Shown: one piece after another, positions 10,568 through 47,157 of the stretch
How the letters are laid out: every line of letters starts with the position of its first letter
How positions within the stretch are numbered: the first letter of the stretch is position 1
Origin: Moniliella sp. 'wahieum'
Taxonomy: Eukaryota; Basidiomycota; Moniliellomycetes; Moniliellales; Moniliellaceae
Assembly (NCBI GenBank): GCA_003971905.1
Contig: RSEE01000061.1
Span: forward strand, 124,001 to 188,000
Reading direction: 5' to 3'
DNA length: 64,000 nucleotides
Notes under the pieces: model-generated
The model's database searches: none
Told to the model about the DNA's origin: nothing
What the model saw: only the letters and a program-made list of their open reading frames with translations
Position numbers and translations under genes: made by a program

Positions 10568-10701
10568 TTGAGGCCGTCGAACGTTGGTTGAACGTTGGTT
10601 GAACGTTGAACTCAACACGTTGAACCGGTTGAGGTCTCTGAGGTTCAGGCCTGAGTTCCTGAGAGGGCTCGCGCGTGCTCAACGTGTTGAACGTTCAACG
10701 C
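10568..10701. repeat. GTTGAACGTT motif cluster
   Basis: At 10568-10630 the units GAACGTTG, GTTGAACGTTG and CAACACGTTGAACC repeat at least five times. A further copy at 10679-10701 reads as CAACGTGTTGAACGTTCAACG and includes a palindrome. The TATATA at 10704-10709 follows immediately. The same motif family recurs at about 13570, 26942, 27355, 34285, 35640, 36290 and 46264. Confidence 0.8.
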
Positions 10702-11255
10702 GGTATATACACTGCGCGTCTTGGAACTGGTCTCCCCGCGGGCCAACTGAAAGACGCCCCCCCTGCGCCCAGGTGCAGCTGCCAGTCTCTCTCTCTCGTG
10801 TATACAGTCCCACTTGCAATTTATTGTTTGTGTACAACCCACCAGCACCGCTACCTTCCAACAACGCCTCTGCAGACGAGAACCAAAACTTCATCGTTAC
10901 CTAGCACCTCCACTGCTTCACCCATCAAGCCCATAATAATAATTCATGGAGAGCCTTGGTGTTATCACCTCGACCTCCTGTATACACCCACCAGGTCTAT
11001 ACTAAAAGCCTGGGCGGGGTCTGTGCTGGGAGCCCCTACAACACGCACCCAGACCGACTGAGTGTTTTGACAACCTGCAGGCCATCTCCAGCTTACTTCC
11101 GTTCGGTTAGGGCCCTGCTGAGCGGGAGGTACGGCATCGCTTTGGGAATACGGAGGCATTCCTCCCGCGCATCGGCGGATCGCCCCTGGAATTGGAGGGA
11201 GATAAGCGAGTCAATGTTGGCGAGCACAGTCGTGATCTGGTCATGGTGCTGCCCC

Positions 11256-13414
11256 TCAAATGGAAGGAGGCTTAGCCAAGGCCAGATGTTTTCGACAAGC
11301 AAGATGACTTGGATTCCATGGGAACTTGAAATGCGACTGCACAGTAGCCAACTTCAAGGCATCGACCCACGAGCCCACCTGCTCCAACGCAATGAGCGCC
11401 AGGGCGTGCACGTCCTCCTCCGCTGCCCCCGCTTGGAGCAGGCCCTTCATCAGCAGGGCAAGATGCGGGTTGGACTTCTCGTCCCAAGGATTCCATCCCC
11501 TAGGCGGCGTGTCCTCGTTCTCGTTCGGTACATGGCCCGAGATGAGATTGGCCAGGGGACCAAGATGGCCTCCCGAATCAGACCTGCACCAATTCTTCGT
11601 CCCCCCCGATATTCTGGTCTGAAAACCCGCTGGGCCAGGCGCGGGAGGCGTACGCCCGTGCCTGCTGCAGCCAAGGCAGGGAAATCAATTTCTGCACCGA
11701 GGGCAGCTCAGGGGATTCCATTAGCAAGGCCAGCACTTCCGATCGAGCCAGAAGGACCATGCTTGGGCCAACGAAAGTCCGCCCCAGGCAGCCGTGTACT
11801 CCTCTGGGTACCGTTCCCGCCAGGCGGGAAGCGACCAACCAACGATTGCATTCCTTTGTCGTCCGGCGAGCTGGGCTTGGGAGGCAGGCAGGCAGGCGCG
11901 GGCCGAACGAAACTCAAGGGAGTCCAGTCCGACCAAATTGCTTCCAGCGCTTTGAAAGATACTTGTAATCGGGGTAAGAGTCGTTCGGTAGGTATGCCAA
12001 TCAAAAAACATGGGGCCAGACCGGCCGGCCAGCAGCTGCAGTGTACATATCGAACAAACTGGCCTGGGCTTCCCGCTGCCTCGACCCGTTGCCGAGAGCG
12101 ATGTTCACAATTTCCCGCTCAAGTTCGAGCAAGGAAGGGAACTTGGCTGCTAGGAAACTGTCCAAGTCCTTGACAAACGTATTAAGTTCAGAGAACCAGG
12201 CACTCTTCTTCGCCGCTGCTTCGACCGCCACGCGATTCGCCTCTTGCTCTTCCTTCAGCTCCTCGGACAGTTGTTGGGAATCATGGATGAGGTTTTGCCG
12301 GTGTGAAACGCTTGTCTTCACTTCATCCAGTTTGGCCCGGAGGGCTGTATGCGGGGTGGAAAGTGCCGGCACAGGCCGCTCCTCGGGCAAGGGCGCAGGT
12401 ACATACTCGTCCGGTTTGGATTGGGCACGCTTGGGCATGGGAACGGAATCCTGAAACTTGGCCAATTGAGCAGCCTCCCATGCCAATTCCTCCTCATTAT
12501 CCCCCTCATTGTCTCCACCCTCTGCCCCACTGACACTGGGACCGAGATGAACATTCTCCAAGGCCTGGGATATTTTTTTGCGTTCCTCCTCGGCGTTGTG
12601 CCGTCGGGCCTGTCGACTCAACCCCAACGCTTGTTCGTCCGCCACAAATGTATCATACTCATCCGAATCGGATCCCGTTCGCGCACCAGACGGCTGCCTT
12701 CCGCCCCTGAGCCAAGAGACGAAGTCGTCCCCTTCCCCAACCGCGTTTCCTCGACTCAGCGCTTGTGCTCGCTGTTGCTTGGCCGCCTCGACCGCCCGGT
12801 CCGAGGGGATAACCGTTTGTGCCTGGGGTTCCCCATGCTTGGCAACATCATCGTGTGGGGTGCCCGTATCGCTCTGGTGCAAAGAAGGAGTAGAGGCCTT
12901 CAAATTGGCCAGGTAGGCGCTCGTGTACTGGACTCCCCCCTCCTTGGGCGCGTCGCCTGAGGCCTCTGGTGTCACATCCGGCGTGGTCACCGACACACCC
13001 GCTGTCCGATCCCGCACAGCTTGAGAGAGCTTGGACCTGCGCAACTGGAACGTATCCCCTTCCTCCTGCACAAAAACAGAGTCAGTTCTTATTTCCGCCA
13101 TCAAAGAGGGTACGCACCTCCTCCAGCGACGCATGATTCAACAGCGCGTGTAGCATGGGCCGCCTCCTGGAGGCTAGGCTTGGAGGTGGCGTCGTGGGAA
13201 GCAGCAAGCACGCGCTCCTTGCGCGAGCTCCCTGTTGCGCCGTGCTTGCCGCCGCGCCGGACCACGGCCGGTCCTGCAGCGGCTTCATCCTCGTCCGACT
13301 CGGGAGGAGCGGTCTTGGGCTCCCCTGCGCCAGCTCCGAGGCTGGCGGGGCAGCAGCCCCTGATGCGGAGCCAGGGCCGCCGCGGCGCTTTTTCTTGAAC
13401 AGAACCGATGACAT
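11256..13414 (-). CDS. GCFC-domain / NTR2-type spliceosome disassembly factor homolog (frameshifted)
   Basis: Probable homolog of PAXBP1/GCFC2 and yeast Ntr2, nuclear proteins linked to spliceosome disassembly with Prp43. The start at 13414 gives MSSVLFKKKRRGG, a basic beginning typical of the family. An intron (13066-13117, CTGAC branch) joins NHASLEE to EGDTFQLRRSKLSQ. The middle has SDSDEYDTFVADEQALGLSR, an acidic EGGDNEEELAWEAAQLAKFQ stretch and a coiled coil (ELKEEQEANRVAVEAAAKK) leading into FVKDLDSFLAAKFPSLLELE, as in the family. The C-terminal GCFC-like part lies in several frames: WHTYRTTLTPIT, YPEEYTAAWGGLSLAQAWSFW, then GWNPWDEKSNPHLALLMKGL to about 11256. At least five single-base shifts separate the pieces. 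Assignment rests on overall layout and short motifs, so paralogue-level identity is uncertain. Confidence 0.6.
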
Positions 13415-14668
13415 GAGGAGGTGGTGGAGTGTGTTCGGAGGCGAGGCAAGTGTTGTCGGCCTTTTATGGCATTCACTGTTCATACGTTCATCGATGGTGG
13501 TCCTCTGTAGTACCTGCAGCGTTTTTCATCGTCCAGGACGTTCAGGCTCGCATTCGCCCCACCTCAGGCTTTGCTGGTTGAACGTTGAACGTTGAGTACT
13601 CCGACTGAGCGCCACACCAGTGTCCGCACCATCATGCATGCAACATGAGATCACACACCACCTTCGACGCTGTTCTGGAATGCTAGGGTTTCAGCGCACG
13701 GCCCTCAGGTGATCGGTGAGCGGTGGCAGCTGGGCAGAAGAGGTCTGCTCGCATCCCCCTGCTTGCCCATCTCGCTCTTCTGTATCTTCCCTCCAGGCAT
13801 TGCTTGAAGACTTGTGGCCCACCACTTACCTTCACGACTTGTCTGAAGACTGCTTTACAGCTGTTCCCGTAGGATAGATCCCCGAGTGCTTCCAACTGAA
13901 GTCGCACTTATAGCACAGCTATGCTCTACCTCTATACGGTAACCACATATCATTGACCGAACTTAAGGCTGGGACAAGAAACGCTCCGCCTAAACAGACC
14001 CGTTCATCCGGTATGCGTTGTTTGTTAGCGCTAACCCCGTTTAAGAAATCAGGGGAATCGCCAGGAAATCAGGACCCTTCTATACAGGGCGCGCCCCCCC
14101 CTCTCTGCCAACTTGACCGTTGATCTGGCAGTTAGTGCATCCATATTGCCTGGACCATTGCAATTGTGTACGCAAGTCTTAACCCGGCGCGCTCAACTTG
14201 GTCGGGGATGTGCACCTCCCTCCCTCCATGCACATAACCTTGATCAAACAGCGTTGGCGGTGGATTGGGGATGCAAGCAAACAAGATGTATGTCTTGCTC
14301 CCTTCGATCTATTCCTTCAAAGCCAAGAGCAAGAGGCACCTTTATCGCCCTCGGCGGTACTAACATTCGCATCATGCAATGGCCGTCTGTGGGAGTCTCA
14401 ATCGGTTTGACCGTATTGTACTGGCTGGCTCTTGCTCCATTTCCAATAATCCTTTCTGATCCGGGCAGGCAAAAGGTTAATGAGTCTCTACTGTTGTCAC
14501 TTTCCACTACGACACTACCACCATGACTGCGTTACCGACGGGCTGGTATGGTTCTGAACGCTCTTTTCACCTTGTCTGTCGAACGACAAGGCATTGCTCC
14601 TCACAACAGGAATTACCAACATGGTATGCTTTCCCTTGAAAGGTATCAATCGTACTGAGAGGGAAAAG

Positions 14669-14695
14669 CACTTTATAGTCGAGAACTATAAAGTG
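14669..14695. repeat. Perfect inverted repeat (hairpin)
   Basis: The arm CACTTTATAGT (14669-14679) is exactly complementary to ACTATAAAGTG (14685-14695), with a 5-nt loop CGAGA. It lies in an AT-rich gap, so it could be a palindromic protein site or a transcript-end hairpin. No gene ends directly next to it. Confidence 0.8.
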
Positions 14696-14910
14696 TGATA
14701 CTAGTAATGACGATCATGCATCCGACAATCGGGGGGAGAAAGTTTATACCCCCCTAGCATCTGGCCAAGACGGTGACGATCGTCAACATCACTTAGTGGG
14801 AAGACTGCCACTTTTGACCCATGCCATACCCAGTGTGCTGAGGATGGCAAGACGCCCCCTTTGACAGGAGCAGGGCAACCTACGGGAGTGTAGAGGACTA
14901 CTAGTTACTC

Positions 14911-14940
14911 TTTGCTTTGCTTTGCTTTGTTTTGCTTTGC
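14911..14940. repeat. (TTTGC)n microsatellite
   Basis: Six tandem pentanucleotide units of TTTGC, one with a C-to-T change (TTTGT). They lie in the gap 3' of the kinase gene. Confidence 0.9.
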
Positions 14941-15085
14941 AGCTGGTATTGAACACATAAATGCCTTTCATTGGAAGCGTAGTGGCTTTGAGGCATAAGA
15001 TCTAGAAGGAACATGCATCATGGGTATGATCCGAAACGTAGTGGCAGAGGCTCAGAGGCGAGGCGTGGCAGGGTATCACTCCAGC

Positions 15086-18000
15086 TTAGCTCGAACTATC
15101 AGGGTCTCGCTTGCGCTGGGCCACAGAGGTAAATCGGCGCTGGGGAAGGGCGCGAGCGGTACCCAAGACAGGGTGCGACGGCATGCGCGGCAGACCCGAG
15201 ACGTGGGAGGCAAACAAACGTGAGGAAGCTAAAATGGGCCGGCGAGAAGGGTCGGGAGACGAGGACCCAGTCCCGGGCCGATCACTGGGTTTAAACGCTC
15301 CACCATCCGAATGGGGACGATCCCATATTAGACGAGTGGGGGGAGCCCAAACGAGAGGGGGGTTGACCATCAGCCCGCCCCCCGCGTAAAGCAGAACCAG
15401 TCGGGTGAATGGGCATGCTCCGTCGGGCGCGTTTCCATCTGACGAGCGAGCAGTAGGCGACCCCGCGGTGGCACGGCGAGCCCCCACACCATTTATCAAA
15501 GACACCTTGCTCGTCTTAGGGACAGGTAGAGAGGATCGTGCTTGGGCTGGCGTGTGTGACGAGGGGCGACGCGCAGGTGGAGCCGCGGCGCTCTCGGATA
15601 CCTCCCTCTCGGTGCTAAGGGTGGGGGAATATTCAGACCCGGAGCGTGCACGGGCATGTTGCGTGGACAGCTGAACCGAAGCTCATCACCTCCTCACGGC
15701 GAGTCGTCAAGTCGGCGCTGGCACCGTGGCGGGAACGCGCATGAGGTGATGGTTGGACGGGAAGCGTGCGGAGCACTCGCCTCCCATGGACGCCGGATCC
15801 AATCGCCGGGCTCGACTTGGACGAGGGCAGGCCACTGAGGGGTCGTTCTTCCCTCGTCGGAGAGACAGGGAGACGGGGACTTGGAAGGGGGCGGGGCGAG
15901 GCAATGGGGTTGTGATCACCCGGTGCGCGGGAGATAGAGGCAATGCGGGTAACAAGGGCGAAGGAGGAGAGCGCGTTCCCTCCCTTCTCTTTCGGTTTAC
16001 GTTATTGATGGAGAGTTGGGTTGGTCGCCGAGTACCAAGGGGTGGGACAATGGACTGGCGTGGGGAGGCAAGAGAGCTAGTAGCAAACCTCGACTGGCTT
16101 GACACCCTCGGACGGAAGTCGCCGATCTCCGATGAGGCCTGCCTGGTATGGTTGCGCGGAAACATCTCGGCTCCATCGTCTTGAGGCGGGAGGGGCGAAG
16201 ATTCGGGCGACTGAGCACGGAGGATCTCGGTTGCTAAGCCTTTGACGATGACTGCCCCTTCGTCCGTACTGACCTCAGAGCTCGTAGAGTGGATAACAAG
16301 TTGGTCTTGTGGAGGACATATCGCCCCTGGGGGTGAGCTTCGACCATGGCCCGCACCAAGCGAAGAAGGTTGAGTCGGGTATCGTTCTTTCGTTGTGTGT
16401 TGCATTAGATTTCTCGTGTAAGCCGGACTCGATACAGCGGATCACGCTGTCATAAGAAACCAGGGCCGCGATGACTTTGGGTGCCAGTCGAGTGAGGCGG
16501 AGGAAAGGAGAGAGCAAGTCAGACGAGGCCCCGGTCGAGGCGCATCCACACCCGATTGGATGTACTGGGCCAAACGTTCAAGGTTGGCGGGTTTGAGGAG
16601 AACATGCTCGATTCGTGCAAAGTCAGCCTGAAGCCAAGCACAGATCGAGGTCATGGCCTGAGCTTGAGAATGGTAGTCAGACGTTTGGCTTACGCCTTTG
16701 GCCAGAGGAATGTCGCTTTGTTGCCGGGCCCAGTAATCCGTCGAAATCATTTCCAGGTACTGCTCCAATGCTTTGGGCCACAATTTTTGCCGCGTTGCAT
16801 TCCCAGCTTGCGCCATATCGCACAACATTGACACAGCAAACGGTTTGACCACACTCTGACGACTAGAGAGTGAGTTGGCCACATTTAGTAGCACGGGTAC
16901 CACCCCCGCCTCTGCCGCTTCTTCCAAGGGGGCATCTCGGGACTCCCTTTGCCCCAGGGGAGGGAGGCGGCACAAATAGTATAAAGCCGTGATGATTTCG
17001 TCGGCGGCACGGTGATCCTCGTCGCTCAAGTGACGAATTAAGAGATGGGTCAGGATCTCGACAGCATTTCCATTCTTGCGCAGACCATCTGCACACTCAG
17101 GTGTCATACTCAAGTTCTTGACACATTGGAGAGCTGTGTACAGTAAATCGGGTTCGGATGAAAGATGATCCGAATCAATCACTCGAAGTAGACGACGGGG
17201 GACAGATCCCTTGGCCAACTGGACTCGCACCTGGGTATCCGAACGAGAGAGGATATTAAGCGTTTTAAAGATATGCTTCCTAGCCGAGCTGGCCTCTGGT
17301 GAGACTGCATCACTCGTCACATTCTGCATCGCGATCGAAAGGGGGTCGAGTACCGCTTGCCGGACGAGCAAGTTGCAGAAAGTACTTTTGCGGCCCTGAA
17401 ATGAGGTCAGACAATGTGGGCTGTGAGAGAATAAGCAGAACGGGAAGAAGGTTACATACGGGGAGGCCAAGAACGCTGTGCACGCACGCTGCACCAAACC
17501 AAACCAGTTCCTTTCCTTCATCGGAGTAGTTTTCTGCCAGCATATCAGCGATGGCCTTGAGCCCACCACATGATAAGATGGTCCGAGGGGCAAAGAAGCT
17601 AGCCCGGGCGTTCGGGAATCGGATCTGCTCTCCCTTCGACAGACACATGGTAGTGAACAAGCGGCCAGCCTCGAGGCGAAGGGAATAGTCGCAATGCGAT
17701 TCAGTGAATGGTTTGATGGCGGGGATAGTCCCAATAACGCAGAGGACTTCCTGGGCCTCGACATCATTCGACGCCAAAACATTAAGCACCCGCAGCACCG
17801 CCAAGGGGAGAATCTCCTTTTCAATCAACTCGAGCAGGGAGAAGGCCCCCTGGGCCGAGAAGAATGTGTGTTTTTGCCTTGCGTCTTCCTGAAATAGCTC
17901 CTGAAGGCGGAAGAGGCTGTCCTCCAATGCGTCAAGCGAGGGGAATACGTTGATGTCTTCCACCAATTGAATGACTTCCTCCCTTCGTCGCTCCGCCTCC

Positions 18001-19697
18001 TCCCGTGCCCTACTCCAGGCTTCCATCTCCTCTGCATCTTCCTCGTCTTCAAGGAGGCGGCGCTCGAGGTCATCTATGCCTTCTTCCGAGCCTGTGTCCC
18101 CCGAGTCAGAGAGAGGATCTGAAAGTTCAGCCGTGTCAGGACGGTGGAGGGAAAGCCGGCGCGAATCCAGCATGTCGATGCCTTGGTCCCATGGCTCCTC
18201 AGTAGATACCGAACATGTTTTACTTGGTGCCCCACGGCTGGCCGCAGCCGCACTGATCGATCCCACTGATGGACGGCCACGTGCTTCCGTTTCTGAGACC
18301 AGCACCACATTGGGGTTGAACGTTTGCGGATGATCGAGGCGTACAAGGTCCGAAACTTCCAAACCAAATTCATCCCCCTCATCCCAGTTTTCCTCCTCCT
18401 CTGATCGGGGAGGTGATGCGGGCATTGCGGGTGAGCTGGATGGGGTAGCCGATTCCTCGTAGAACCCCTTCGGCTGGCCATCCTTCGAGTTGAGGATCCA
18501 CCGGTGGCGACCAAGCATGTCGGCATCATGTCGCAAGGCCTGATCGGTTTGGAAACAGACCCGCAAAAAGTCACGTCCCAGCTCAGTAATTTCAGGAGGA
18601 AAGGCAGGGTGCTGGCCATTGAGCGCACGATAGGAGGCGTTGATATCCGTCAAGAGGTGCCATGGGTGTTGGCCGTGTTGCATCAACTCAATCACCACAC
18701 ATCCTACACTCCAAATGTCCGATTTGGGAGTCGGCTTGGACATGAGTGCCTCGGGTGCCATCCAGTACGGCGTCCCCTGGACCTTGTCCCCCTGGACTGC
18801 TGCAACAGCCGTCGCAATACCAAAGTCGGCGAGTTTGACGCGGGCATTCTTAACCAGCAGAATATTGTCCCCTTGATGTCGCGGTGGATCACACCCTGGT
18901 GGTGAAGGTAGGAGAGGCCATCGAGAACCTGCCCCATAAACTTGGCAATCAAGCGCTCGCGATTATCCAACCCTGGTTGCTTGAACCAACGGTGCAGCGA
19001 ACCGATCTCACAATACTCAAGTACAATGTAGAGCGACTCATGCTGCTCTTGTGGGTCGCGCTGCTCAAACGCATCGAAGTATTTAACAATGTTTTCGTGT
19101 TGAAGAGGCTTCATAATGCGAATCTCGTCTCTAGCTTGACGCATCCCATCCTCCCGTTCCTCGGGCGTCGAGGTGTAGCCCACCGAATTAATCTTCTTGA
19201 TCGCCACGGCTTCCCCTGTTTTGAGGTTGAATCCCTTCCACACCGTCCCGAATGCACCTGATCCTAGGCGGGTCTCGAGCGAATATTGGCGAACGACCAC
19301 AGGTTGCTCTTTGGGGCGCCCGGAGCGTACTTGCGAAAGGTCTGCAACAGGGCGGGAAGGGAAGGGCGTCTGTCTCGGCCCAAGTTCGGATGCAGGTCGC
19401 TGCGCTGCACTGGTGGTGGGTGCAGCAGTGGGAATTGCACGGCGTATACGGGGTACGACGCGCGACGAAACGGTTCGGTCGCCATCCTGAATGTCCATAT
19501 CAGGATCGGAAGCTCCGGGCGGGACTTGGTCCAGACGTAAGGGGGCAGCGAGGAGGGTGGGCGCGCCTTGCTCCGACTCGTCAAGGTCAGAGGGGTAGGC
19601 GTCGGAAAGGGAGCGGGTGAAGCGGCGGTGGAGCGGCGCAGCTGGGTCGGGCGTGCTGGAGGGCGCTGTGGTGGGCGGGGGAGAGGGGCATGGACAT
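15086..19697 (-). CDS. sepH: SepH/Cdc7-type septation kinase (frameshifted)
   Basis: Ste20/MAP3K-like Ser/Thr kinase of the septation initiation network, like S. pombe Cdc7 and Aspergillus SepH. The kinase domain (about 19270-18490) shows LGSGAFGTVWKG, the VAIKKI lysine, HRDIKGDN (one G missing near 18873), the DFG region LADFGIATAV and APE in GTPYWMAPEALMSK. An acidic Glu-rich linker follows, then long armadillo-like helical repeats (LFRLQELFQEDARQK, LRVLNVLASNDVEAQEVL, PDLLYTALQCVKNLSM), as in SepH. An intron (17396-17459, GTATGT donor, CTGAC branch) joins SVLGLP to GRKSTF. Ser/Pro-rich low-complexity frames continue to a stop at 15086, so the tail is tentative. The start near 19697 is inferred across one frameshift; the next in-frame Met is at 19498. 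At least six single-base shifts are present. Confidence 0.8.
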
Positions 19698-26669: not shown

Positions 26670-26941
26670 TTCTGCTGCGAACGGTCCCATAGCTCGTCCG
26701 GTCATATTTTCGATTCAAAACGACAACTACGACCGCTTTGAGATTTGATTCATCTCAGAGCTTGAGCCACAGCACTCTCGCGAAATGAAGCGAAATTGTT
26801 GGGACCATCCCCGCAGGCCCCAGCAGTGACCCAGCCCGTCCCTCCGCAAACTGTGTGCGCAACCGCAGGCGTAATCAGATACAGGGAGGATGCAGATGTT
26901 CCATCATACCGTCAGCAATAATCAATTTCCCTCGACCTCAT

Positions 26942-26966
26942 CAACGTTCACGTTCAACGTTCAACT
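26942..26966. repeat. AACGTTCAAC motif cluster
   Basis: CAACGTTCACGTTCAACG followed by TTCAACTGAAC: overlapping copies of the GTTGAACGTT family in reverse orientation. The next variant (AAACGTTAAACGTTAAAGG) is at about 27354. Confidence 0.75.
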
Positions 26967-29900
26967 GAACAGTACGCACCCCTCCGCAAGTTGATGATAG
27001 TACTAGTAGGTTAGACCTTTTAGATCTTACTGACGAAAGAGTGGTGCCCACGGAATATCTCACACACACATCTGGATCTGTCACAACTCTTGCCCCGCAC
27101 GATAGTGCTGTGTCGCTACTATGCGGTCGCCAGCTCATTCCCTCTCTCTGCCCGCTTCTACGTGGCTCTGATATCTCCTCGTCTCCGCGTCCGGCTTAGA
27201 GCTACCTTGCAACCCTCCTCTGCACGTCACTGACGGGGGCTGAGGCGCTGAGGGCGCTGAGGCCGGAGGTCTCGTCTCGTCTGTACCCACACAGAAAAGA
27301 TAGATCCCATGCACACACTCTGTCTCAATCCATCTCCTCCGAACATTAACCGTAAACGTTAAACGTTAAAGGTTGAACCGCCGAGCTAGTGAGCGCTGAG
27401 CGCGCGCTGAGCAGACCTGGACTGAGCACCGCTCTATCCTTCTCTAGTATACACACAAAGTACTAAGTCTTTCGGGCAGTACTATTACAAGTAGTAACTA
27501 GTAACTACTTACCGGAGAAACGCGGTAACCGGTAACCAGTCAAGCTACAAGAGCTTCAAGCTTCGGGGCTTCAACCTATGGTTCGACGTTCAAGCAAGCC
27601 TCAGTCCTCAGAGACCTCACATCCTCAGAGACCTCTCAAGCCTCAATCAAGCCTCAGGCCTCAGGCTTCAGGGCCTCAGGGTGTCCTCTCTGGTCTGAGT
27701 TCCTAAGCCAGCCTCTGAGCTCTTGAAGCTGAAGGACATCTTAGGCATTGAACGCAATCGAAACCGGGTATATCTTTTTAGGCAGTACCTGGCGTCTGGG
27801 ATGGTCGATGGACTGCTGTGTGTCCATCAGATATGGCTCCCATTTGGACTCCTCGCCTCTGGTCCCTAGCCTGCCTTGGATTTAGCGTTATGCGTGACGA
27901 CGCCCCCCCGCCCTGCCGGGTTCCTAAGAGCGGCTTACGCGCTTACGTGGCACCCATTACGCGTTGATGAGTACACGCAGCAGTGGCAAACGCCTGGCTA
28001 CTACCGCAGACTATACCAACGCTGCGAACACCCTGGTTACATTGTTTCAGAAATCGCGGGGCAATGCGGGGATGAAACACAGAGCCAATGCGGCGGGTGT
28101 TCGACCAGGCCCTGCCGGCGACCAGGCTTTACCGGTACCTGCTCGTCCCTGCTCGCCCGGGCCTACCCTTCTCTACCCCCTACCCCCCCCCCAACCGCCG
28201 CAGCGGGGCCGCGGGATCGCCGGAGGCTGAGCGCCGAGGGGCGCTTGCTCAGATGATCGAGGAGCCTCATTGGCTGAGCCTCAAGCCTCAGTACCTCCGT
28301 GCCTCACCTCAGCGCCTCAGCGCTAAGATCGCTGCGAGGCCCTGCTGTGTGTTTTAACGCGGCGGGATGGCCGGGCCGGCGGTGGTGCACGCATGCACAG
28401 CAGCGCCCTCCCTGGCCGCCATTGGCGCCTCGGCGCCTCAACGCCGCAACTCTCATCAACTCCTGATCGCCTCATCGCCGCATCGCCTCTCTCCCTCACC
28501 GGCCACGCCCTCCGTATGACTATCGTCATGACCACAGCCAAATGTCCACTTGCTATTAGGATGGTGAAGTCGTGAGATATGAGCGCGTGGTTAGATCAGC
28601 CTTCGTGCCTCGGCTCCCCTGGGCCGCCGTCTGAGTTGGCTGGTGCAAGCCCGCCGTAGCACGAGCAGGCACTGCACCATTGTCGGAGACAGGTGTACGT
28701 ACATGGCCAGCTCGTACGCATGTGCTTTTGTGCAACGCGCACCCCCACACCTCCCCTCTCACATGCCACGTGTCACATGTCACACCCCCGCGCGGCCCCA
28801 TCTTAACCCGTCGTCTGCTGTCCAGCGGGTGCCTCGGCGGCCATAAAATGTTGGGAGGTTCCTGTATATCGCACACAGGCCCCCTGCCGCGTCGTCTGGG
28901 AGCGGTGGCCGATCATCGATCATCGACCATGGTGCCGATGATCGAAGAGGACCGGGGACCCCACAGCCGTCACCGCGTCACCATTATAGTTGCAACAGGA
29001 TGCATGATGCATGATATCGATATGCAATTCCTCCGGCCCCACGGCATCCTATCTTGTTTGGAGCATCTGCATTGTTTACGTGGTGGACCTCTTGCCTCTC
29101 CTGCAGATGGATGGAAGAGCCTAGCATCTCTATCGTCATAGAACCGGTGCGAGCTTCAAAGGCGCAAAGGCGGGAATATAGTCAGTTGGTCCTCCTTGGG
29201 TGGAAGGGGGTGCCAGGGGGCGCCAAGAAGGCGCGGCGGGCAGCGCGTTTCAGATGGAGTTCTAGCGGCGAACGCGGCTCCGCATCTTACTCTGGCCCGT
29301 AGGCAGGGCGCCAGTGGAGCTTAGAGGCCGGAGGGAAGGCGGGAGGTGTGTGTGCGGAAACGAGGCGACGTGGGGGCATGTGGGGAAAGGGGGTGCAAGG
29401 CAGAGTGTGTGAACACCAAGGGGCCTTGCAATCATCGATCCGCTGTTGTTCTGTGCAAGTGACTTGAGGCAGTGACATGTGGCATGTGAGGTGAATATAA
29501 TGCTCCCGGGGGGCTTACTGGACTCATATCGACCCTACGATTGCGGTGGCGGCGCCTGTCCCCACGAGCTGCTACCCCGCGGGGGTTCCTGTTTGAACTC
29601 GTCGTCCGCCGATGGGCTGGGATCTGCTGGCACTGGCTACTGCTGGGGCCCCGTGCGGATATAGGATGTGCATGGTTTGCGTGATGGTTTGGGGCCGGGG
29701 TGATCGATCTATGGCCTCGATGATTGCTACTCTTCGCCGATCGATGAGTTCGATGGTGCCCTGTGCTGCGTGATGCATGATGCGGGGGCAGGGGCTGGGG
29801 CTGGGACTGGGGCGGCCGGGACCCGCTGTGGCATGCATGACAGGCTGTAGCCTGCGGTGGCACTGCTGTGGCAGGCTGTGGCCCCTCTGGAGAGCGCAGA

Positions 29901-33007: not shown

Positions 33008-34466
33008 ATCTCCCTTTTGGTCCATATAAGGTTCCCCAAAATCCACGCCCGTCCCATCTTTTCCCTTCATCTCTGATCCATCACTCCGACAGCCTGCGCT
33101 GACGGGTACGGTGAAGAGATGGAGGATGCCCATACCCTATCGTTTCCCTTTACGTCCCTGATCACTCTCTTCTTTCCTCCTGTAATTAGCTACGGCTCGA
33201 AACGTATTGAGTGCGTACAGCTTCGTTTACGCACCCTAATCATCTTGTTCGCAATAGGAGTAGCGGGAGAGGCCTCACCCTCTGCTTGTTGCTCCCATAT
33301 CTTCATCAAGTTGTCTTTTTTCTTGTATCTCCACCACCTCTAGTACATATATGGTGTGGCTGGTTCTTCCACACAGATCATTTTTGACGGCAAGGATGTC
33401 CCACGGACTACTCCTGCTTGATTGGCCTATCGCATGCATATGCCCACCTGATGGAAGAGGGAGTAGCTTGAGCGGATATGGACGTTGCAGTGACGCGTAG
33501 ACGATTGCTTTTCTCTATAGTTTTTTTTATGGAACAGACCCCGTTGGGGCAACTGAGTTATAGCCGCAAGCCACTGTATTTCCAGTGCATCTACGCCTTC
33601 CTTTTTGAGCTCTTGTGTTTGCTTCCTCCTCGTGTCTTCTCTCCACGTCCTACACCGTATTGGGACCCGCGGTCCCGTACATATAGGCCAAGGCGCCTGA
33701 TCACCCTTCGCCCCTGATTTGACTCCGAAGCCTCCACGTGTACTCAGGCTTGTTTGAACCTCTGTCTCCTCTAGATGTGGCATATGGCTTAGACTTAACG
33801 ACCACCATCGCGAGGCATTGCTCTCATTTCCAGAGAGGTTCTTGATGAGGAGACCTGGAGACCAGATGGTCCTCGAGGGTGATGCAATCGCACTGGTGGT
33901 GGTGGTGGTCTAAGCCAACCAGCAACGCCTACTCAGAGGAACATCAAGCAGCGAGTCGCCACCAGGGGCTAAGCTGCGGAACAAGGAAGAACAGGAGAGA
34001 AAACAACGGGGAACTCCCAGGCCTGAGGAGGAACTAAAGGGACATTGGCCAAAGCACGAGCCACCTGATGGCTCAACAGCTCCACCCAACCCCTTGGGTT
34101 CCTCCGGTCTTACACACCGTTTCCCCTCGATACTCATTCGTTCAACTGTGGGTGTTCACTGATGTTCACCTCCGTCGTCGTGATCATCGATCAGCGCCCT
34201 ACTAGGTCTATTCTTTTCCACAGCGGGGCGTGCCATCTGTTATGGCGGCCGGTGTTGGGTCTCTGCGCAACAAGGCACCTTCATTCGAACGTTCAATATC
34301 AATTGAACTTAACTCGAACGAACAGCGATTGTCCGGGTGCTTACGTACTACCGGTCGTACGGCGGAGACAGCAGACACAGCTCGCATGCGCCACAGGCAG
34401 ACGATCTCCCGCACTTGAGACAATCCGCCACTCGTTCCCCGTCACCACCACCTCTGCCTCTGCGCC
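33008..34466. other. Intergenic region downstream of MFS transporter
   Basis: No gene is supported. The first 500 bp are AT-richer, as in other 3' flanks of this window. It contains a block (33661-33740) related to one at 43378-43463, a GGT/TGG trinucleotide run near 33892-33912, GATCATCGATC near 34182 and a GAACGTTCAATATCAATTGAA palindromic stretch near 34288. Confidence 0.5.
33661..33740. repeat. Dispersed repeat copy A
   Basis: Starts TGGGACCCGCGG, contains GGCCAAGGCGCCT and ends GAAGCCTCCACGTG. The same ordered blocks occur at 43378-43463 with small gaps between them. Both copies are noncoding and lie in 3' intergenic DNA. Confidence 0.6.
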
Positions 34467-35638: not shown

Positions 35639-35686
35639 TGAACGTTGAACGTTAAACGGTGAACGGGTGAACGTTGAACCGGGTCA
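35639..35686. repeat. GTTGAACGTT motif cluster
   Basis: GTGAACGTTGAACGTTAAAC, then GGTGAACGGGTGAACG and TTGAACCGGG: five tandem or near-tandem copies of the (G)TGAACG(T) unit. Confidence 0.8.
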
Positions 35687-37144
35687 TAAGTGAACGTGGC
35701 AAACCAATGTGCCATCTTTCATGCACTCCCCCAGCTAACACGATCTCTTGGCTCGTATGTGATACCAGCCGCCTGACGTCACATTCACATGGCAACACGT
35801 CGCGGTGCATTTCCTGGGGTCGATCTTCAAGCTCTTCAAGCTTCCAGCTTCGACCTGCAACCTCACTAATCTAATTTGTACACACTCGGAGCAGGCTGCA
35901 GACGCGAAAGTCCCATTGTCGATAGGCCGGCCGGCCAGTAACCCACCACAAACCCAAGCGAAAAAGATTCGGAATGATTAATTAGGCGTTGGACGATCAA
36001 TCTACCCTGCGCCCTGTTCTACCTCCCTGGCCTGCTGCCCCCGTCCCCTCTCCCCGTCCTGTGCTACGCGTGCGACATTAAGGATGTATGTACGTGGAGA
36101 CGACGAGTCCGGAGGCGCACCAAGAATGCTGAGCATCAGAGATTGAGAGGACGGTTTGCCTTCGTAGTCATAAAAAAAACTCGGAGATTAAGAGGTGCCA
36201 GTTGAAGCTGTGGAGTGTAGTAGCGCGTGTGTGGAGCGGAAGAGGCGAAGAGGCGGAGAGGCGCGCACGCTCGCTTTGGCTGAACCTGAACGTTCAGCTG
36301 AACCAATGTTTTTGAGTTGACCGACCCACGACGTCATCATGACGCATGCCGTGCGGCCAGTGTCGTGAAGCCAGCCTGGGGCCTGCGGACAGTAGAAGTA
36401 TGGAATCCTGATTGCTCTTAGAGCTTTGCGGTTCCAGAGCTTTCTCGATCCTCAAACTTCGATCCCCCGAAGATGAAATCGGTGATGTCGATCATGATCG
36501 ATGGATGAGATCTCCAACCAGATCGAGCAGGTTTTATTGTAATGCCCACACACCACAGCTGCTGCTTTTGGCCGCAGGCAGGCTTGCATGGGCGACAAGG
36601 AAATGTGGATGGGGGGAGTGAAGCCCAACAACCCGACTGATGGCATTCTTTGTGAGAGAAGGCGAGTGGGAGGACTGTGGAGGGACAGACAGACAGAAAG
36701 GCACCAGGTCGTATGTCGGAGAGGTTTTTTAATCTGAGAACCTCTTCTGCTGATGGAGAAAGGGCCCATGTGTGCATCGCGATCGAATAGCGACAATACT
36801 GAGAAACGTGTTCGACGCTGCGTTGTGGTGGCGGCTCGTGCCATGTCGATCCCGAGACGCCTGCACAGAGCTGCGTACGCAGCTGCTTCACACACAGGAT
36901 GGCCCTTCTGATCTCGGGTCCTCTGTTGTGCCTCGATGAGACCGAAACGAGACGATGACGGGGATGCCTGGTCTTTATGACCACATCTAGTAGGTGTGAA
37001 GTAAACGAGGCCTTGGATGCACTGACGTCATGGCCATCCAACACCGAAACGGAGCGGATGGCGATGCGGTCGATTGTGTGGGTGTGCTTCCGGATCGAAC
37101 ACGGGCAGGCGGTGAGGCGGGTGGCAACGCACAGGTTCTTTGTG

Positions 37145-37152: not shown

Positions 37153-37223
37153 TCCTCCCTGCTACTCTTGCCGTCTTGCTACCGACCTACCCAGCACCCT
37201 TCTTCATCTTTACTCCTTGCATC

Positions 37224-38147: not shown

Positions 38148-41100
38148 TCAGGCGCCCCATGGGCCCCCCGACGAGTAAAAGAATAAGAGCGAGGCGATGA
38201 TCAGAGCCGGCAGCCAGAACAGCATCAGCATCCGGTCCTCCTGCCACGTTCGCAGCCAACGTCCTTCCTCCACCTTGCCCCGGCGACGGCGACGTCCATC
38301 TCCCCCCGTTGAAGCCGATGCCGAGGTTGAAGTAGACGAAGTGGAAGTAGACAGAGCAGAAGCAGAAGGGGAGGAGGAGGCGACGGCCGTTTCATAGGCC
38401 GGAGGTGCCACCTCGTCCAATCCCAAGTCGCGCCCTTTTCTTTCTTTTTGGTAGATTGGAGCTGTTCTTCAGAGAACGCCGGAACCGTTTGCTCCACCCT
38501 GTACACCGACAGGGGAGCAGCAATACTGTTCAGCACGGCCGGGAAGAAGAACCGATTGAGGCCTCCGAGATGGAACCTTCTCTTCTTCTCCCCCTTGAGC
38601 GAGGCGGTCAAGAGCCTTCTCATCCGGCTCGGCACATTCCCGCTACGGATCCTTGTCTGGCAACGACTCCATTTTCTCCGACACTGGCTCCTTCTCCAGC
38701 AGCAGCTCCTTGTTTTCGGAAGCAAGCTTCTCTGGTAGGACAACCTTGACAGGCAGTTGAGACGTAGGAGATGATCCCTCTTCGCTCTCCGACTCGGACA
38801 GTGTCTCAGAGGAAATGTTGTCCTCGTCAATGGAGGCTGCCGGGCGGTGACTTGACCCGAGAGAAGCACGAGGAACGCACTCGCCCTCTTCCACTTCTTC
38901 CTCGTCCTCCTCTTCCTCCTCTTCCCCTTCCACGTCCTCGTCTTTTCTTCCGTCTCTTCGTCCCACTCTTCGTCCCACGCCTCCGCATCTGACGATGCCA
39001 TGGTGCACGCAAGGAGGTCAAAGTGTTGCAAAAGAAGTTCCACCGTGTCTTCCTGGCCCGCCATGCGCGCCAGTTGGAGCGGGGTAAGCCCCGAGCGTTT
39101 CGGCACGCGGATCCGCAAACGCACGGAGCAACCGCCTGGTCACCCGCGTCCGGCCATGCAGGGCAGCAAAGTGCAACGGTGTCATGCCACTGTTGTCACG
39201 CGCATTAACCGGCGCTCCCCGACGCAACAGCTCCTCCACCAACCGGGAAAAGCCAAGAACGACAGCTAGGTGCAGTACCGTTTGCCCAGCGCGGTTGGTC
39301 AGGCGGAAGGCGTCCTGCTTCCGCTCGGGGGGAGGAAGGTGGCGCTTGTCGGGGGCGGGCGTGGCACTTCCTCGTCCGATAAGGCAAGCAGAGAGACGAG
39401 GGTGTCTTGGAAATTGAGCGGCTTGTGCGCCCCGTCGGATGCGACACGAGAGAGCAGGGAAAAGTGGGACATGGAACGCTCCAGAGGACGCTCGGCAGAT
39501 TCGTTCGCTGCGCCCTCTGCTGGAGTCGACGAGGAAGGCTCTTGTTTGTCTTGCCCCACCACGCGCATCGCAACATCCCGTGCCGAATGCACTTGTCCCG
39601 TCATCTTGAGTCCCACGACCTGCAGCGCAAGCTCCATCAAGCCCCGATCCGTTTGTTCAACGTAGGTAAAGAACGCCAAGGGCGAGCTTTCTTGCGTATC
39701 GGGAGCAGGAGAGCGAGGGGTTCGAGCGCTCACAATCACTGGGCCCGGGGAGGCGGCCGGAGGCAGGACACAGACCAACGTATTGCTCGCCCACACTTTG
39801 GTGCTGATAGCTGGATGGTCCCCAAAAAGGACCGAGATACCCTGAACAAAGTTTTCTCCCAGAACCGTCACTTCCGTCCCGCCTGTCGTCGGGCCCTCGC
39901 GTGGGATGAGCTGCGTGACTTTCGCCACAGGCTGAGCGGGCGGGGTGAGGGGCGTCATCGAGTTGAGCATCCCCGGTGTCCCGGCATTGGAGCCAAAGAA
40001 GAACATGTTCGACTCGTTCGGACTGGGCAGAGCGTCCATAGGGCTGGGTGGGAAGGAACCGGATGATGGATTGGGCCATTGACCTTGGTTCATCCTCTGC
40101 ATCATCGACATCATAGCCGCATACATTTGCGGAGGCGGCTGCGCATGGTCTTGGAACATGAGGGAATTGCCCGTCGCAGCCTCAGTTTGGGACCGGGCAA
40201 ACATGTAGGCTTGCATTAGCATGGCCGGATCCACCCCGCCGGACGGCTGTGTCGTTTCTTCCGTGGCAAGGGGTTGCAGCGTCTCAGATGACAAGCCCCC
40301 CTGCAGCGCCGAAAGCGGCGCGGTCCCCGTTGGTATCGTTCCCTTGCTTGGAGAGGGAGAGATAGCTTCCTGAGGAGATACAGAGTCACTTATACTCCCA
40401 TGGCGGTGATGCGGCAAGGGAGAAGCACGCTGGGCAGCTGGCGTATGGAAATCACCAGACAACCCTTCCATCGGCGCAGGAGATGAGCTACCGGTTGACA
40501 CTTGCGAGAAGGAACGCTGGGTGCGCATCGCACTTGAGCTGAGCTGCCTGGCATACGGCTTAGGACGAATGATCGTGTTCTTGTGTCGCTGCTGACCGAC
40601 GCGACCAGCCGTGCTGTCCTGAACGGGAGCCGCACCGCCTTCCTCCAGACTGGGAGGGGACGGCGAGGCGGTGCCACGTTGGCCGCTTGACTGAGGCGGT
40701 GGGGTGAACATCTGGTGGTGCAAGTGTGCTGCATTGGCAGCATTCGCACGCGAGAGAGCCTCAGTCAAAGCATCGGCTTGGGCCTGCATCAGGGCCTGGG
40801 CCTGCGGTGTTTGGGACGTCTTGTGGTCGTCGGTAATCATGATTGGCGGTGTGGTACCCGTGGCAAGAAGTTGTCCCGTCCAATCCCGCAGGGTAAAGAT
40901 AATGCAGAACCCCAGCTTCTCCTTATGGTGACGGCAGTAACACGTAATCCGGGTCGGAAGGACCGCTCCCCATTCCGGAACTCAACATAGTCGTGTTGAA
41001 CACACCACTCGGGCCTTTGCCCGTCGTTCCCGCATCTGCACAGCCAGGTCGACCGCCCCTGGGACGGATGGATCGATTCCCAAAGCTTGTATCTCTTCAG

Positions 41101-42452: not shown

Positions 42453-42524
42453 ACTCGATCACTCGATCACTCGATCACTCGATCACTCGATCACTCGATC
42501 ACTCGATCACTCGATCACTCGATC
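42453..42524. repeat. Nine tandem copies of ACTCGATC
   Basis: Exactly nine uninterrupted 8-bp units (72 bp) without a mismatch. Read circularly, the unit contains CGATCACTCG. It is placed 159 bp upstream of the MGA2-like start codon at 42294. There are no spacers, so it is not a CRISPR-type array. Confidence 0.95.
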
Positions 42525-43377
42525 ACCACCAGCACCCGCCGCTGCTCCGACGCAGCCCATGTTGCGCAGCGTGGCATGGCGCGTGTGGGATCGGCCGCTG
42601 CAGCACCCTGCCTCCGCCAGCCAGCGCACGCGCCCCGCACGGCGCCAGTGTTGCCCCGCGCACCCCATTCCGATTTGTTGGGAGCCAGCCCCCCAACTTG
42701 GCTTCGTCTCGTTGGGGCTCGGGCTTCGGCCTTTCCCGCTGCAACTTTCAACCGCACGCGCCAGTCCGCTTAGTCCGCTTTCCTGCGTCCGCATACGCGG
42801 TGCGCGCCACTCAAAGTGCACTCCCCCACGCGCCCCCCACCCGCGCTTCCGTTCCTCGCCTCCCCTGCTGCTGCTCCCCCCCCCACGAATCGGGCGCAAG
42901 CTATGCGGCTACCAGCGGCCAACACACGCGTCCAAGTAAGCCACTGACGTCAGTCGTCCCGTAGAGACACACCTAGTACTCCTTCCGAGTCCTCCCACTA
43001 CCAAGGCGCAGAATTGCTTCGCCCCTTTGCCCCGCACGCGCGCTGATTCGCCGCTCCCTCGCTCCACGGCCGTGCGGGCCGCCATTTCCGCACACACCGC
43101 AATGGGGAATCAAAACGTGTCATGCATCGTCCCATCCACCACCTTCCGGCGCTCATCTTGAATGCACAACGGCCCTCTATTATAACCTTCCGAGTCACCT
43201 TTGATTTGGTCTATCCCTCTCCAGCCCCAAAAGACAGACGCGCTGATGCACTGCGATCACACAGTAACTCCCTCGAGCAGAACCCTTCGCTTCAGATGGT
43301 AGTGCTTGTGAAAGAAGACTTGTGGCTCGTCACTAGTCATTAGCAGGACGGGGTTGGCTCCTACAGCTTCACTGTGT

Positions 43378-43463
43378 TGGGACCCGGGTGCCCCCCTGCA
43401 TGGGCCAAGGCGCCTTATCGATTGTCGTCCTTTGCCCCTTACTTGATCTCTGAAGCCTCCACG
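43378..43463. repeat. Dispersed repeat copy B
   Basis: Begins TGGGACCCGGG, contains GGGCCAAGGCGCCT and ends CTGAAGCCTCCACGTG, in the same order and spacing (within a few bases) as 33661-33740. Minus-strand peptides across both copies share RGGF and FHK stretches, so an old mobile-element fragment is possible. Confidence 0.6.
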
Positions 43464-43550
43464 TGGATCCTCCGGTTGCTGTCCCTCTGGTCTATGCACC
43501 ACATCGTCGCCAATGTAGGCAGGGCGGTGGAGACGATATCCCCTTGATTC

Positions 43551-44565
43551 TCATCCCAGTACGGCGCGTGCCAGGAGCAGGAACCCCGCGGCCGTGACAC
43601 AGGAGGCGCACAAGTTGACCGAATTGTTCGACAGTACATCGTGGCCCGTGACCACGACCCACTCCTCCTCCTTGGGCGGCGACCGAGGAGGACCTGTCCT
43701 CCCCCTCCCGGAGCAGGTCGGAACCAAGTCCGCTGCAAGGTGGCACCCAGGACCGAATCAAGCATGCTGCCCCCTAGCCCAGCCAGCGTAGTGAGCGCCA
43801 CCAGCGCCGCTCCTCGCCCCCAAGCGGCTGCCGCGCACGGAATGCTTCCACGGCACGAGGAGGAGACCGATGGTAGTGCCGCCTACGGCAGAACAGAGTG
43901 TCCCCCAGGCAGATACCCCGCCGTTGGTGCCGGGAGGAACGGTGCGTGTGGGGTGGGTGACGAGCCGGGGACGACGTTGGCTAAGAATGCCCAGTTCGCT
44001 GGCCAACGTGTCGCCGAGACAGCACGCGTAGTGGCCTGTGGCAAGAAAGAGGAGGGAAGAAGCGAGAAGCGTGGCGGGGTCGGACCCCCCCACCATCCAA
44101 GAAACCGGGTACCAATGCGTGTCTGGTCCAGGATCGGCTCAGGGAGAGGAAGAAGCGGTAGGTGAGCGCAGCGAGTGCGGCTGCGCGGTGCCATTGCATC
44201 GGGGTCAGAGCATAACTATACAGCTACAGCATCGTTGGACACGGGTGACATACGGAGAAAGGAATTGCAGAGGACTTGGTAGGCGTCCCTTTTGCCGCCA
44301 GAGGAGGACTTGTGTTCCCCTCCCAGCTCGGTTTCGAGCTGCGCCTTGCGCTCGGCCTTGACTTTGGTGGCACGCGAGCCGGCAAAGTAGAACCCGAGGA
44401 GCAGGACACCAAACGCGGGGTGGGGGTTGGCGAGGTGCGCATACCCGACGCCGGCCGCGGCCAGGCCGCCCGAGGCAGACAGACTACCCTTGCGCCATCC
44501 GTGATAGCCGAGCGCGACGGCGAGAGAGAGCGTGCCCAGATGCGGATCAAGGCCGTGGATGAGCA
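43551..44565 (-). CDS. TMEM19/DUF92-family membrane protein (frameshifted)
   Basis: Multi-pass membrane protein of the DUF92 family (TMEM19; related to VTE6-type CTP-dependent polyprenyl-phosphate kinases). The start at 44565 begins [20 protein letters not shown], then [20 protein letters not shown]. The family core is unmistakable: [40 protein letters not shown] (near 43930-44010) and [18 protein letters not shown]. The end is [28 protein letters not shown] and a stop at 43551. Shifts occur near 44215, 44090, 43790 and 43700. It is divergent from the next gene, with 432 bp between start codons. Biochemical role in fungi is not established. Confidence 0.85.
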
Positions 44566-44997
44566 TGGCGGTGTTGCTGTGTTGCGAGTGTGGAATTGGG
44601 CCGAGGCAGGGAGCGCAACGCCACGCAGCACGAGAGAATGAACGTTTCAGAGCAGGGCGGTGGCTGCAGGGCAGCTGACATGTGGCATGCGACGGCAGGC
44701 CGAGGGATCTGCCGGATGGCTGCGTCGTGGAGATGATCTCCAGCCAGCGCCGACTGCGGGGGGGGCTGGTAGGGTTGGCTGGCTGCGAGCGGTGGTGACG
44801 TCGTAGGCCGAGGGGTGATGCTCGATGCATGGTGATGCTGATGGCTGCATGGTGATGTGATGTGTGACATGCTGGGCAAAACAGGTTGTTGCACAGGAGC
44901 AGCAACCGCCAGCCCGCAGGCCAGACACGCCCGACCGCACCGCGTCCAGCTGGGCCCTCCCCTCCACCTCCCGCCCTCCCCCCGCCCCCTCGCCGCC
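44566..44997. promoter_or_regulatory. 432-bp divergent promoter
   Basis: This space lies between the TMEM19-like start (44565, -) and the Sds3-like start (44998, +). It contains GCTGACATGTGGCATGCG (44669), repeated ATGCATGGTGATG units (44823-44860) and GTGATGTGATGTGTGACATG (44853-44872), the same motif families seen in other gaps. No obvious TATA box. Confidence 0.6.
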
Positions 44998-47157
44998 ATG
45001 GCCGAAGCGTACGGCCGCCGGCCACGCACTACGTTCCCCCTCCGCCCCCCCCCGCCGCCCCTCGTCTACCCTACCCGCCCGCCTCCAGGCCCAACGAGCC
45101 CATGGCATCATACCGTCCCCATCCCCGCCTCCCCCCACACCCTTCCCCTTCTCCGTCGCAGCCCTTGCCGCAGCCTCAGGCCCAGCCCCAGCGGCCGCCG
45201 CCACCCCTCACCACCACCATCACCACCACCACCACCACCACCCCTTCCCACCCGCACATGCACAGCGAGGGCATGCCCCGGGTTCCGCCTAATGAGGTAC
45301 CCACTCCCTACTCCCAGCTTCCGCCGCCCAACTACCCCGACTACCTCTCGTCTCAGCTGCCTGCCTGGTCCGTACCCGCCAGCAACTCTGCTTCCAACAC
45401 AGTCCCCGGCCCCGACCCAATGTATCGCCCCCTCCCCATAGAGGGCATGTCGGCACCTACGCCGATGGGGGCACATCTCGTCTCGGTCCCCATGCCCTCC
45501 GGCTTGCGCCACCCTTCCAAGGCCCTGTTGCCTCTGCCTCTGCTGCTGCCGTTCCTGCAACGACACAGACCCCTCAGGTGCACCTTCCCCGGCCCCGAAC
45601 CGGAATCGGTCGAGCAAGCCGCGCGGCCGGAGTGGGCCTGCCAAGGCCCCGCGCCGCCAAGAAGCCGAGGAACGCGAGCCACGCCGCCGCCGCACGAAGG
45701 GAACAGGTGGAAGAGCCTGCGGGTGAGTCGCGTTTCGCTGCTTCCAACGCCGCGCTGCCTTCGGTCACGGGCGAGAGCAAGAAGGACAAGAAACGAAGGG
45801 AGGTACTGGAACGGATCGAGCGGCAGTACCGTGAATCGTGCGAAAATCGCGAACTGTATGTCCTATCATGGTTTGGGGATACGGGAAACAGAAATTGTGT
45901 AACATTGCGCAACTTGGTCAACTGACGTTCCTATTAGGTTTGCCACGGAGCTCCTGAAAAAAACGGGGAGACCCATACGCGGTTAATGGAGACCCCAACG
46001 TCCGAACGGGAATATCAGTTGGCAGCGGCGCAGTTGACAGTGGAGCGCGACACGTTGCTCACTAAGGTCCAATTGTTCCACCAGTATCTGCTGAAGCAGG
46101 CCCACGCTCGCTTTGAGGCCGACCTGGCGCGGTGGGACGAGGAGGCACAACAGGCCCACCAGCGGATCCGGGACAAGCTCCTCTTTCGGTCGAGCAAAAA
46201 CGAGGGCAGCTCAAGGCGGAAAAGGAGAATGGGGAGGCTGTTTTGAGTACGTATCTTGACTGATCAACGTTCAACGTGGGGAGACGGGACCGCTGACAAT
46301 GGATCGTTCGACCACAGCCGAATCGCTTATGGAGCAACAACGGCAATCCACTCGCAAATTGCGCAACAAACATTCTGGTCGTCCGACACGTGGCTCCTTG
46401 TTGGACGACGATCTGGAAGCGCCCTCGTCCAGCGCGCCAACACGGGGGGACCCTCAGGGTACCCAGGGCGGGAACGCAGGACATCACGGTCTAACCTCTG
46501 GCACCGGAGCATTGGGCCTCAACTTGTCTGGCAGCCTGGTGCAGAGCATGGGCTTTTCCCCCTCGGACTTGTTGGTGCTCACATCTGCAGGTCGCTTGGG
46601 CATCGAGTTTGCACCGCCTCAGTCCGAGGTGAGAGGAACCAAACGCCGCGCAGCGGAGGAGGACGAGTCGATCTCGGATCTGCTTGCAGGGCCGCTGCAT
46701 CTGCGCCTTGACCCTGCCACCGTGCTCGATCTGCTCGGCTTAGGGGGGAGCGCGACCGCTCCCTTTGGTGGCGGCGGGATTATGACCGGTCTTGTTGATG
46801 GGGGCGCAGGGAGCGAACAGGGCGTGGTAATTGTTGGCCCGGGTGCCAACAAGGGCAGGAAAAAGGCACGGCAGGGTCCCGGGGCTGCAGCTGCTGCTGC
46901 TGCTGCGGCGGCGGCTACGGCAAGTGCGCTAGGGGATGTGGAGAGTCCTGTGAGCCACTTGGCGGCTGGCACGGCTGTCCCAGCATCTGTTTTGTCAGCC
47001 ACCATTGGGGCTGGACCAGCAGGCCGGCTCAAGTGGGACCAGGGCAAGTCCCTCCAAGCCCTTACGCGCGGCTGCCCCCGCCGAGGTAGAGGCGGATCTG
47101 GCGCGCATCCGCAAAGCGCTTGGCGCTGGCAACAAGTCACCCGCCAAGCCCATCTGA
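44998..47157 (+). CDS. Putative Sds3/Dep1-like chromatin corepressor subunit (frameshifted)
   Basis: Nuclear, low-complexity protein. The start at 44998 has a strong Kozak context (GCCGCCATGG). The N-terminal third is Pro/Ser/Thr/His-rich and includes a Thr run from an ACC repeat at 45208-45242. A coiled-coil core follows: KKDKKRREVLERIERQYRES, SEREYQLAAAQLTVERDTLL, LKQAHARFEADLARWDEEAQ. Two introns: 45856-45937 (ACTGAC branch) and 46247-46317 (GCTGAC branch), the second joining EAVL to TESLMEQQRQSTRKLRNK. An Ala run is near 46890-46920. The C-terminus returns in another frame as VEADLARIRKALGAGNKSPA before a stop at 47155. The core resembles Sds3-like/Dep1 subunits of the Rpd3-Sin3 deacetylase complex. 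I judge this from the charged coiled-coil pattern, so it is tentative. Confidence 0.5.

Follow-up and report, generated by a model that had tools for sequence, protein, structure and literature searches.

Which process gives rise to the TTGAACG/CGTTCAA repeats scattered through this locus? A sequence-only reading had proposed a genome-wide protein-binding site, a hairpin-forming miniature repeat or slippage at self-complementary cores. The window, that is, the whole 64-kb stretch of DNA analysed here, is fungal, with an elongation-factor-3-like protein at 48322-50859 and an SPT23/MGA2-type domain at 39302-40981; EF3 marks fungi. The family is far above chance, as had been claimed. GTTGAACGTT occurs 10 times in the window against a mean of 0.11 and a maximum of 1 in 100 dinucleotide-preserving shuffles, and TTGAACG occurs 23 times against 7.08 expected, with 15 in the highest shuffle. 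The excess also holds under the genome-wide count that had been offered as its refutation: the whole 69.5-Mb assembly contains 1723 + 1680 = 3403 copies of GTTGAACGTT, compared with 89 + 87 = 176 of the pattern read backwards. The 14-mer palindrome GTTGAACGTTCAAC is found at 65 places in the assembly, versus 1 for its control. All of the positions listed earlier exist on direct reading, but the copy near 34285 is a decayed one (CGA-ACGT-TCA, 34286..34295, plus strand), and an exact copy at 18315 was missing from the list.

Identical triplets around four-base palindromes

A scan of over-represented words revealed that the TTGAACG/CGTTCAA repeats are one case of a wider rule, in which a TNA triplet is followed by any 4-bp palindrome (P) and then by the same TNA. 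Such TNA-P-TNA sites, with TNA mostly TCA or TGA, stand 34-40 times above a Markov model. The window contains 54 TCA-P-TCA sites where an order-3 Markov model predicts 1.9; for TCA pairs around non-palindromic spacers the count is 40 against 26.6. In a wider sample of 20 stretches of 10 kb (200 kb) chosen by fixed coordinates, the corresponding figures are 145 against 4.3 and 117 against 64.4, and TTA-P-TTA occurs 19 times against 0.5. All 16 palindromic 4-bp cores are found in these stretches, the AACGTT reported earlier being only one case. The repeats described by the sequence-only reading are thus real, but their unit was mis-stated: the constant part is the flanking TCA/TGA, and the core is one of 16 interchangeable ones. 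Assembly-wide, TCAAGCTTCA occurs 7850 times against 37 for its backward control and TCAACGTTCA 3661 times against 125, compared with 279 against 45 for TCAAGCATCA, whose core is not palindromic.

The rule is specific in both word and size. Among the best 40 of 4096 scored flanking-triplet pairs, CAT/CAT (5.0) comes next after TCA/TCA and TTA/TTA. Taking L as the two bases to the left of a trinucleotide X, and a prime as the reverse complement, the share of L-X-L'-L-X among direct repeats in the window and the 20 stretches is 115/156 for TCA, 107/141 for TGA, 15/28 for TAA and 17/28 for TTA. The next-best trinucleotides are ATC (16/91), ATG (16/111), CAT (14/91) and TGG (12/55), and the scores of the first three may include overlap with TNA sites; among the 64 trinucleotides, only TNA shows the pattern this strongly. 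When core lengths of 1-5 were combined with arms of 1-4, TNA stood out at core 3 and arm 2, and arms of 1, 3 or 4 gave no comparable TNA excess. Other self-complementary words gave nothing (ANT 1/298, CNG 4/820 and GNC 7/964, versus 72/488 for TNA, strand-counted per product type), and other gap lengths between TNA copies gave little signal. AT-only cores (12 against 0.42) and GC-only cores (30 against 1.5; both summed over the 20 stretches) are about equally enriched, therefore stem strength is without effect. In 50 kb of E. coli run through the pipeline as a control, 14 strand-counted TNA-P-TNA sites were present, 0 with a flank match (defined below). The 200-kb sample contains 328 strand-counted, that is, 164 TNA-P-TNA sites, which extrapolates to ~57,000 in an assembly that holds two haplotypes at least at the window region.

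The motif scan places TGA-ACGT-TGA in the first cluster of the earlier list (10600..10609, minus strand), two overlapping copies of it as an array (13579..13595, minus strand) and two TCA-ACGT-TCA at 26941 and 26954 (26941..26963, plus strand). The haplotype listing adds the array TAA-ACGT-TAA-ACGT-TAA (27353..27369, plus strand) and two TGA-ACGT-TGA at 35639 and 35668 (35639..35677, minus strand), both on both haplotypes. The inverted forms TCA-P-TGA and TGA-P-TCA are merely ~2- to 3-fold enriched in the window and samples. Two cases of the minority TGA-P-TCA form, GT-TGA-AC-GT-TCA-AC (10686..10699, from the motif count) and TGA-ACGT-TCA (36287..36296, read directly), have complementary middle bases in their two TNA copies and may reflect later mutation or an inverted insertion. 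Ordinary short tandem arrays are also present near 42525 and near 299 (ATCACTCG, 8 bp, and CATCC/CATCCC).

Flank-derived spacers and alleles 7 bp apart

With R denoting the two bases to the right of TNA, two products account for the sites: type I, in which L-TNA-R becomes L-TNA-L'L-TNA-R, and type II, in which it becomes L-TNA-RR'-TNA-R. Single copies, those lacking another same-strand copy inside 30 bp, make up 106 of 199 TCA copies. A flank match, in which the left flank equals the second half of P and/or the right flank equals the first half, extends to at least two bases in 82 of these 106, leaving 24 without, and match lengths stop sharply at two bases. When TNA copies are oriented by N = C/T, one-sided matches fall to the left (type I only) in 41 cases and to the right (type II only) in 37. 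Among 260 strand-counted sites with two sources that disagree at every one of the four bases, the spacer is wholly one-sided in 48 + 48 = 96; the plain tandem form accounts for 12, and other mixtures are rarer. Neither the L'R' joint nor plain tandem duplicates are in excess at TNA. In the compatible case R = L', the expected spacer is found in 38 of 76 strand-counted pairs, versus 32 of 708 for other words. In the reconstructed empty targets TNA alone is strongly conserved, with C or G as the middle base in 89% versus ~75% of all TNA words; a weak bias appears at 1 of 30 flanking positions (chi-square 12.7). The hairpin L-TNA-L' kept as the primary unit was rejected because TCA-P-TCA (54) exceeds P-TCA-P (22) and neighbouring cores can differ.

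The two haplotypes carry the corresponding empty and filled alleles. A first partner locus proved 92% identical to part of the window, and the segment C3:216001-286000 runs colinear with the entire window in the opposite orientation, with seven main blocks of 88-96% identity and one short 78% match. The 69.5-Mb assembly therefore probably includes the copies of both nuclei, at least in part. The 62,202 aligned bp contain 2214 mismatches and 1026 indels, of which 23 have a length of 7 bp. Five single sites and two array steps (at 10183 and 27502) form exact pairs of empty and filled alleles that differ by 7 bp, all from the haplotype alignment and on the plus strand. Three single sites are empty in the window and filled, as type I, in the partner: CT-TCA-CG (2751..2757; partner CT-TCA-AG-CT-TCA-CG), AT-TGA-CT (3507..3513; partner AT-TGA-AT-AT-TGA-CT) and AT-TCA-TT (10310..10316; partner AT-TCA-AT-AT-TCA-TT). 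Two are filled in the window: the previously named GA-TCA-AC-GT-TCA-AC (TCA-ACGT-TCA, 46264..46273; partner GA-TCA-AC, type II) and TA-TCA-TA-TA-TCA-AC (TCA-TATA-TCA, 58853..58862; partner TA-TCA-AC, type I). As for the arrays, TCA-CGCG-TCA-CGCG-TCA (10183..10199) has one 7-bp unit fewer in the partner, and TAA-CTAG-TAA (27495..27504) one more. Further 7-bp indels, for example those at 9699, 25557 and 27526, fit with at least one changed base, and the remainder of the 23 do not fit.

Filled alleles are present on both haplotypes, and an identical counterpart on the other one exists for 34 of the 62 copies in the window and for 34 of the 69 in the partner. Since about half are thus shared, an assembly fault does not account for the marks, and they did not newly arise in one nucleus. 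The seven exact cases amount to at least one such difference per ~320 mismatches, which is a lower bound. The TNA-P-TNA structure itself requires a gain; at single sites, an outgroup is needed to separate gain from loss. Because empty and filled alleles lie 7 bp apart, the TNA-P-TNA copies record 7-bp insertions at TNA and represent neither a binding word nor a miniature element. In a second allele classification, 25 of 131 TNA copies came out as empty in the partner, against 11 for the other 60 words, and 74 were left without a class. This classification was not used for counts because it calls too many empty sites inside arrays: several of its 'empty' copies, 10230, 27495, 35639 and 57732 among them, are listed in both haplotypes elsewhere.

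The haplotypes also differ by five indels of ~87-117 bp (window positions 6330, 14706, 20738, 43041 and 51057), of which that at 14706 resembles a mariner-type MITE in its inverted ends and TA duplication. A ~450-bp insertion at about 33658-34110 is absent from the other haplotype; by eye, ACACCGT stands at both of its edges, and related pieces occur at loci L008 and L005.

How the marks may arise

To account for the data, an agent must recognise TNA symmetrically and insert 7 bp, four of which form a palindrome from two bases of one side. The best explanation, to which we give somewhat less than an even chance, is a hairpin-capped break at TNA with a 7-bp duplication, followed by opening of the hairpins 2 nt beyond the tip and by rejoining. 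The break, made by an agent that acts symmetrically on TNA, would duplicate the 7 bp L-TNA-R, and each end would be sealed covalently into a hairpin, which is how hAT and RAG-type transposases treat the DNA next to an excised element. A nuclease would then nick each hairpin 2 nt 3' of the tip, the side and distance preferred by Artemis. The left end would then carry RR' and the right end L'L as a self-complementary 3' overhang of 4 nt, and both overhangs would fit one 4-nt gap. If both were ligated as a mismatched bubble, one round of replication would resolve it into type I and type II. As to what makes the break, the candidates are a low-copy cut-and-paste element and a domesticated transposase. 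Target word, insertion size, base source, the two products and the allele pairs are direct observations, from which we infer the break, the hairpins, the opening point, the bubble ligation and any transposase.

Components of this kind have been described. The hAT-derived fungal protein Kat1 produces breaks capped by hairpins (PMC4763223), Ac/Ds footprints are palindromes derived from flanking DNA (PMC4561436), rust fungi have hAT families with 7-bp duplications (PMC12730594), Artemis opens hairpins (PMC8450076) and, when cutting 3' overhangs, typically leaves 4 nt (PMC9303282), and yeast Sae2/Mre11 and Pso2 are named as hairpin-acting (PMC12216023). The products observed here are compatible with a 7-bp duplication in which 2 bp at one end have been replaced, and intact 7-bp tandem copies are not in excess. 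Against the break-and-join view stands the near uniformity of the TNA junctions, with one product almost alone; end joining usually yields a spectrum of junctions. The searches detailed below, which found no transposase (seven Pfam families) and no fitting element (334 kb), also count against it.

The main and serious rival, although unlikely on balance, is fold-back copying during replication, in which the growing strand would fold back with TNA as a 3-nt loop, copy L' and resume at L, adding a 7-nt mini-hairpin L-TNA-L'; the same event on the other strand would give type II. Such an error is a known kind of mutation (template switching), yields exactly both products, equally on both strands and free of any break, and accounts for the lack of other junctions. 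It leaves unexplained, however, why the loop is only TNA and why exactly two bases are copied, and AT-only stems do as well as GC-only ones.

Another possibility, which we regard as quite unlikely, is a host enzyme working in the absence of a mobile element, such as a domesticated transposase, recombinase or topoisomerase-like protein, that makes the mark at TNA by a fixed reaction. The uniform product and the symmetric 3-bp target favour it, as do the negative searches for an element (334 kb) and for a transposase (seven Pfam families). PF13359 (DDE_Tnp_4), PF10551 and PF13358 gave 0 matches each in the whole assembly, with positive controls (for PF13359 in 1 genome) and with search power in this genome unproven; PF18759, PF05699, PF18758 and PF14372 also gave 0 matches each, their controls being silent. 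The same searches weigh against a host enzyme, as they yielded no candidate gene among the seven families, none of which is a positive control here. In 334 kb, 14 weak candidates for inverted-end elements were found (8, 2 and 4 with 6-, 7- and 8-bp duplications), neither of the 7-bp ones being TNA-centred. A MITE was rejected as the source, since 0 of the 14 have a TNA-centred 7-bp duplication, and the earlier proposal of a hairpin-forming miniature repeat finds no such element in the 334 kb. By eye, none of six large haplotype indels combines inverted ends with such a duplication. 

A bolder reading, possible but with clearly less than an even chance, is that an element-free, enzyme-driven process places 7-bp marks on TNA words through an invariable hairpin reaction, and that this would be a germline mode of mutation which has turned unique DNA into palindromes and 7-bp arrays, leaving tens of thousands of marks.

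Ordinary 7-bp tandem-repeat slippage is very improbable as the origin. Arrays with a 7-bp period do exist and differ by 7 bp, but more than half of the TCA copies are single (106/199), exact tandem joints are found in 18 of 488 strand-counted cases at TNA versus 512 of 11817 at other words, and slippage does not produce a spacer complementary to the flank. Although disfavoured as the origin, it may add or remove units within arrays. Slippage at self-complementary cores came nearest among the three earlier proposals because a mutational process that uses self-complementarity is indeed at work; its specificity, however, resides in TNA rather than in the core, and TNA shows no excess of plain 7-bp tandem copies.

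A protein-binding site kept by selection is highly improbable despite the strong over-representation and the depletion in long ORFs (7 of 62 window sites, versus 799 of 2521 TNA words, lie in the union of 27 long ORFs; with ORFs as a proxy for exons, the avoidance of exons noted earlier holds weakly), as the sites draw on all 16 cores according to the local flank, and empty alleles exist one 7-bp step away. A transcription-factor site with one preferred core was likewise rejected, since all 16 palindromic cores are in use. Apparent regulatory motifs in such genomes can therefore be mutational marks.

The process has a readable grammar, in that the target word, the size and the source of each inserted base are legible from the sequence, and empty and filled alleles stand together in one assembly. 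If hairpin-end joining is true, thousands of natural junctions would record the way in which hairpin-capped breaks are opened and joined in a fungus. Should the process involve no element, the marks would represent an undescribed route by which genomes gain palindromes and repeat arrays.

Relation to known systems

No earlier description of TNA-palindrome-TNA insertions was found in the literature searched, from which most subscription papers are absent. Template-switch (quasi-palindrome) mutations share the local copying of a reverse complement. Such mutations depend on inverted repeats already present, differ in length from case to case and are not known to require a particular trinucleotide; here, no pre-existing imperfect inverted repeat is apparent, the matches at single copies being mostly one-sided and the target being strongly conserved at TNA alone. 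PIF/Harbinger elements (Tourist, mPing) share the 3-bp T-N-A duplication with a tolerant middle base (PMC4561436), but they excise precisely, a 3-bp duplication predicts no 4-bp palindrome, and PF13359 is without a match. V(D)J P nucleotides are likewise self-complementary additions at a joint, explained by off-centre hairpin opening, whereas the TNA marks have no RAG-type signals or coding segments and no trimming or random additions, and always four one-sided bases.

hAT footprints (Ac/Ds, Hermes) and Kat1 breaks have flank-derived palindromic bases and a target duplication in common with the TNA marks (PMC4561436 and PMC4763223), and the flank-derived spacer expected of a hAT/RAG-type footprint was found in 82/106 single TCA copies. 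The TNA marks differ in their fixed size and spacer and in their TNA centre; the duplication would be 7 bp here against the 8 usual in hAT, and no element or transposase was found. The spectrum of variably trimmed joints expected of hAT/RAG-type excision was not seen either, and for these two reasons membership is not claimed. The insertions point to a break-and-rejoin or copying process that could be matched to no described one, and that appears to work in a manner resembling hAT/RAG footprints with P nucleotides.
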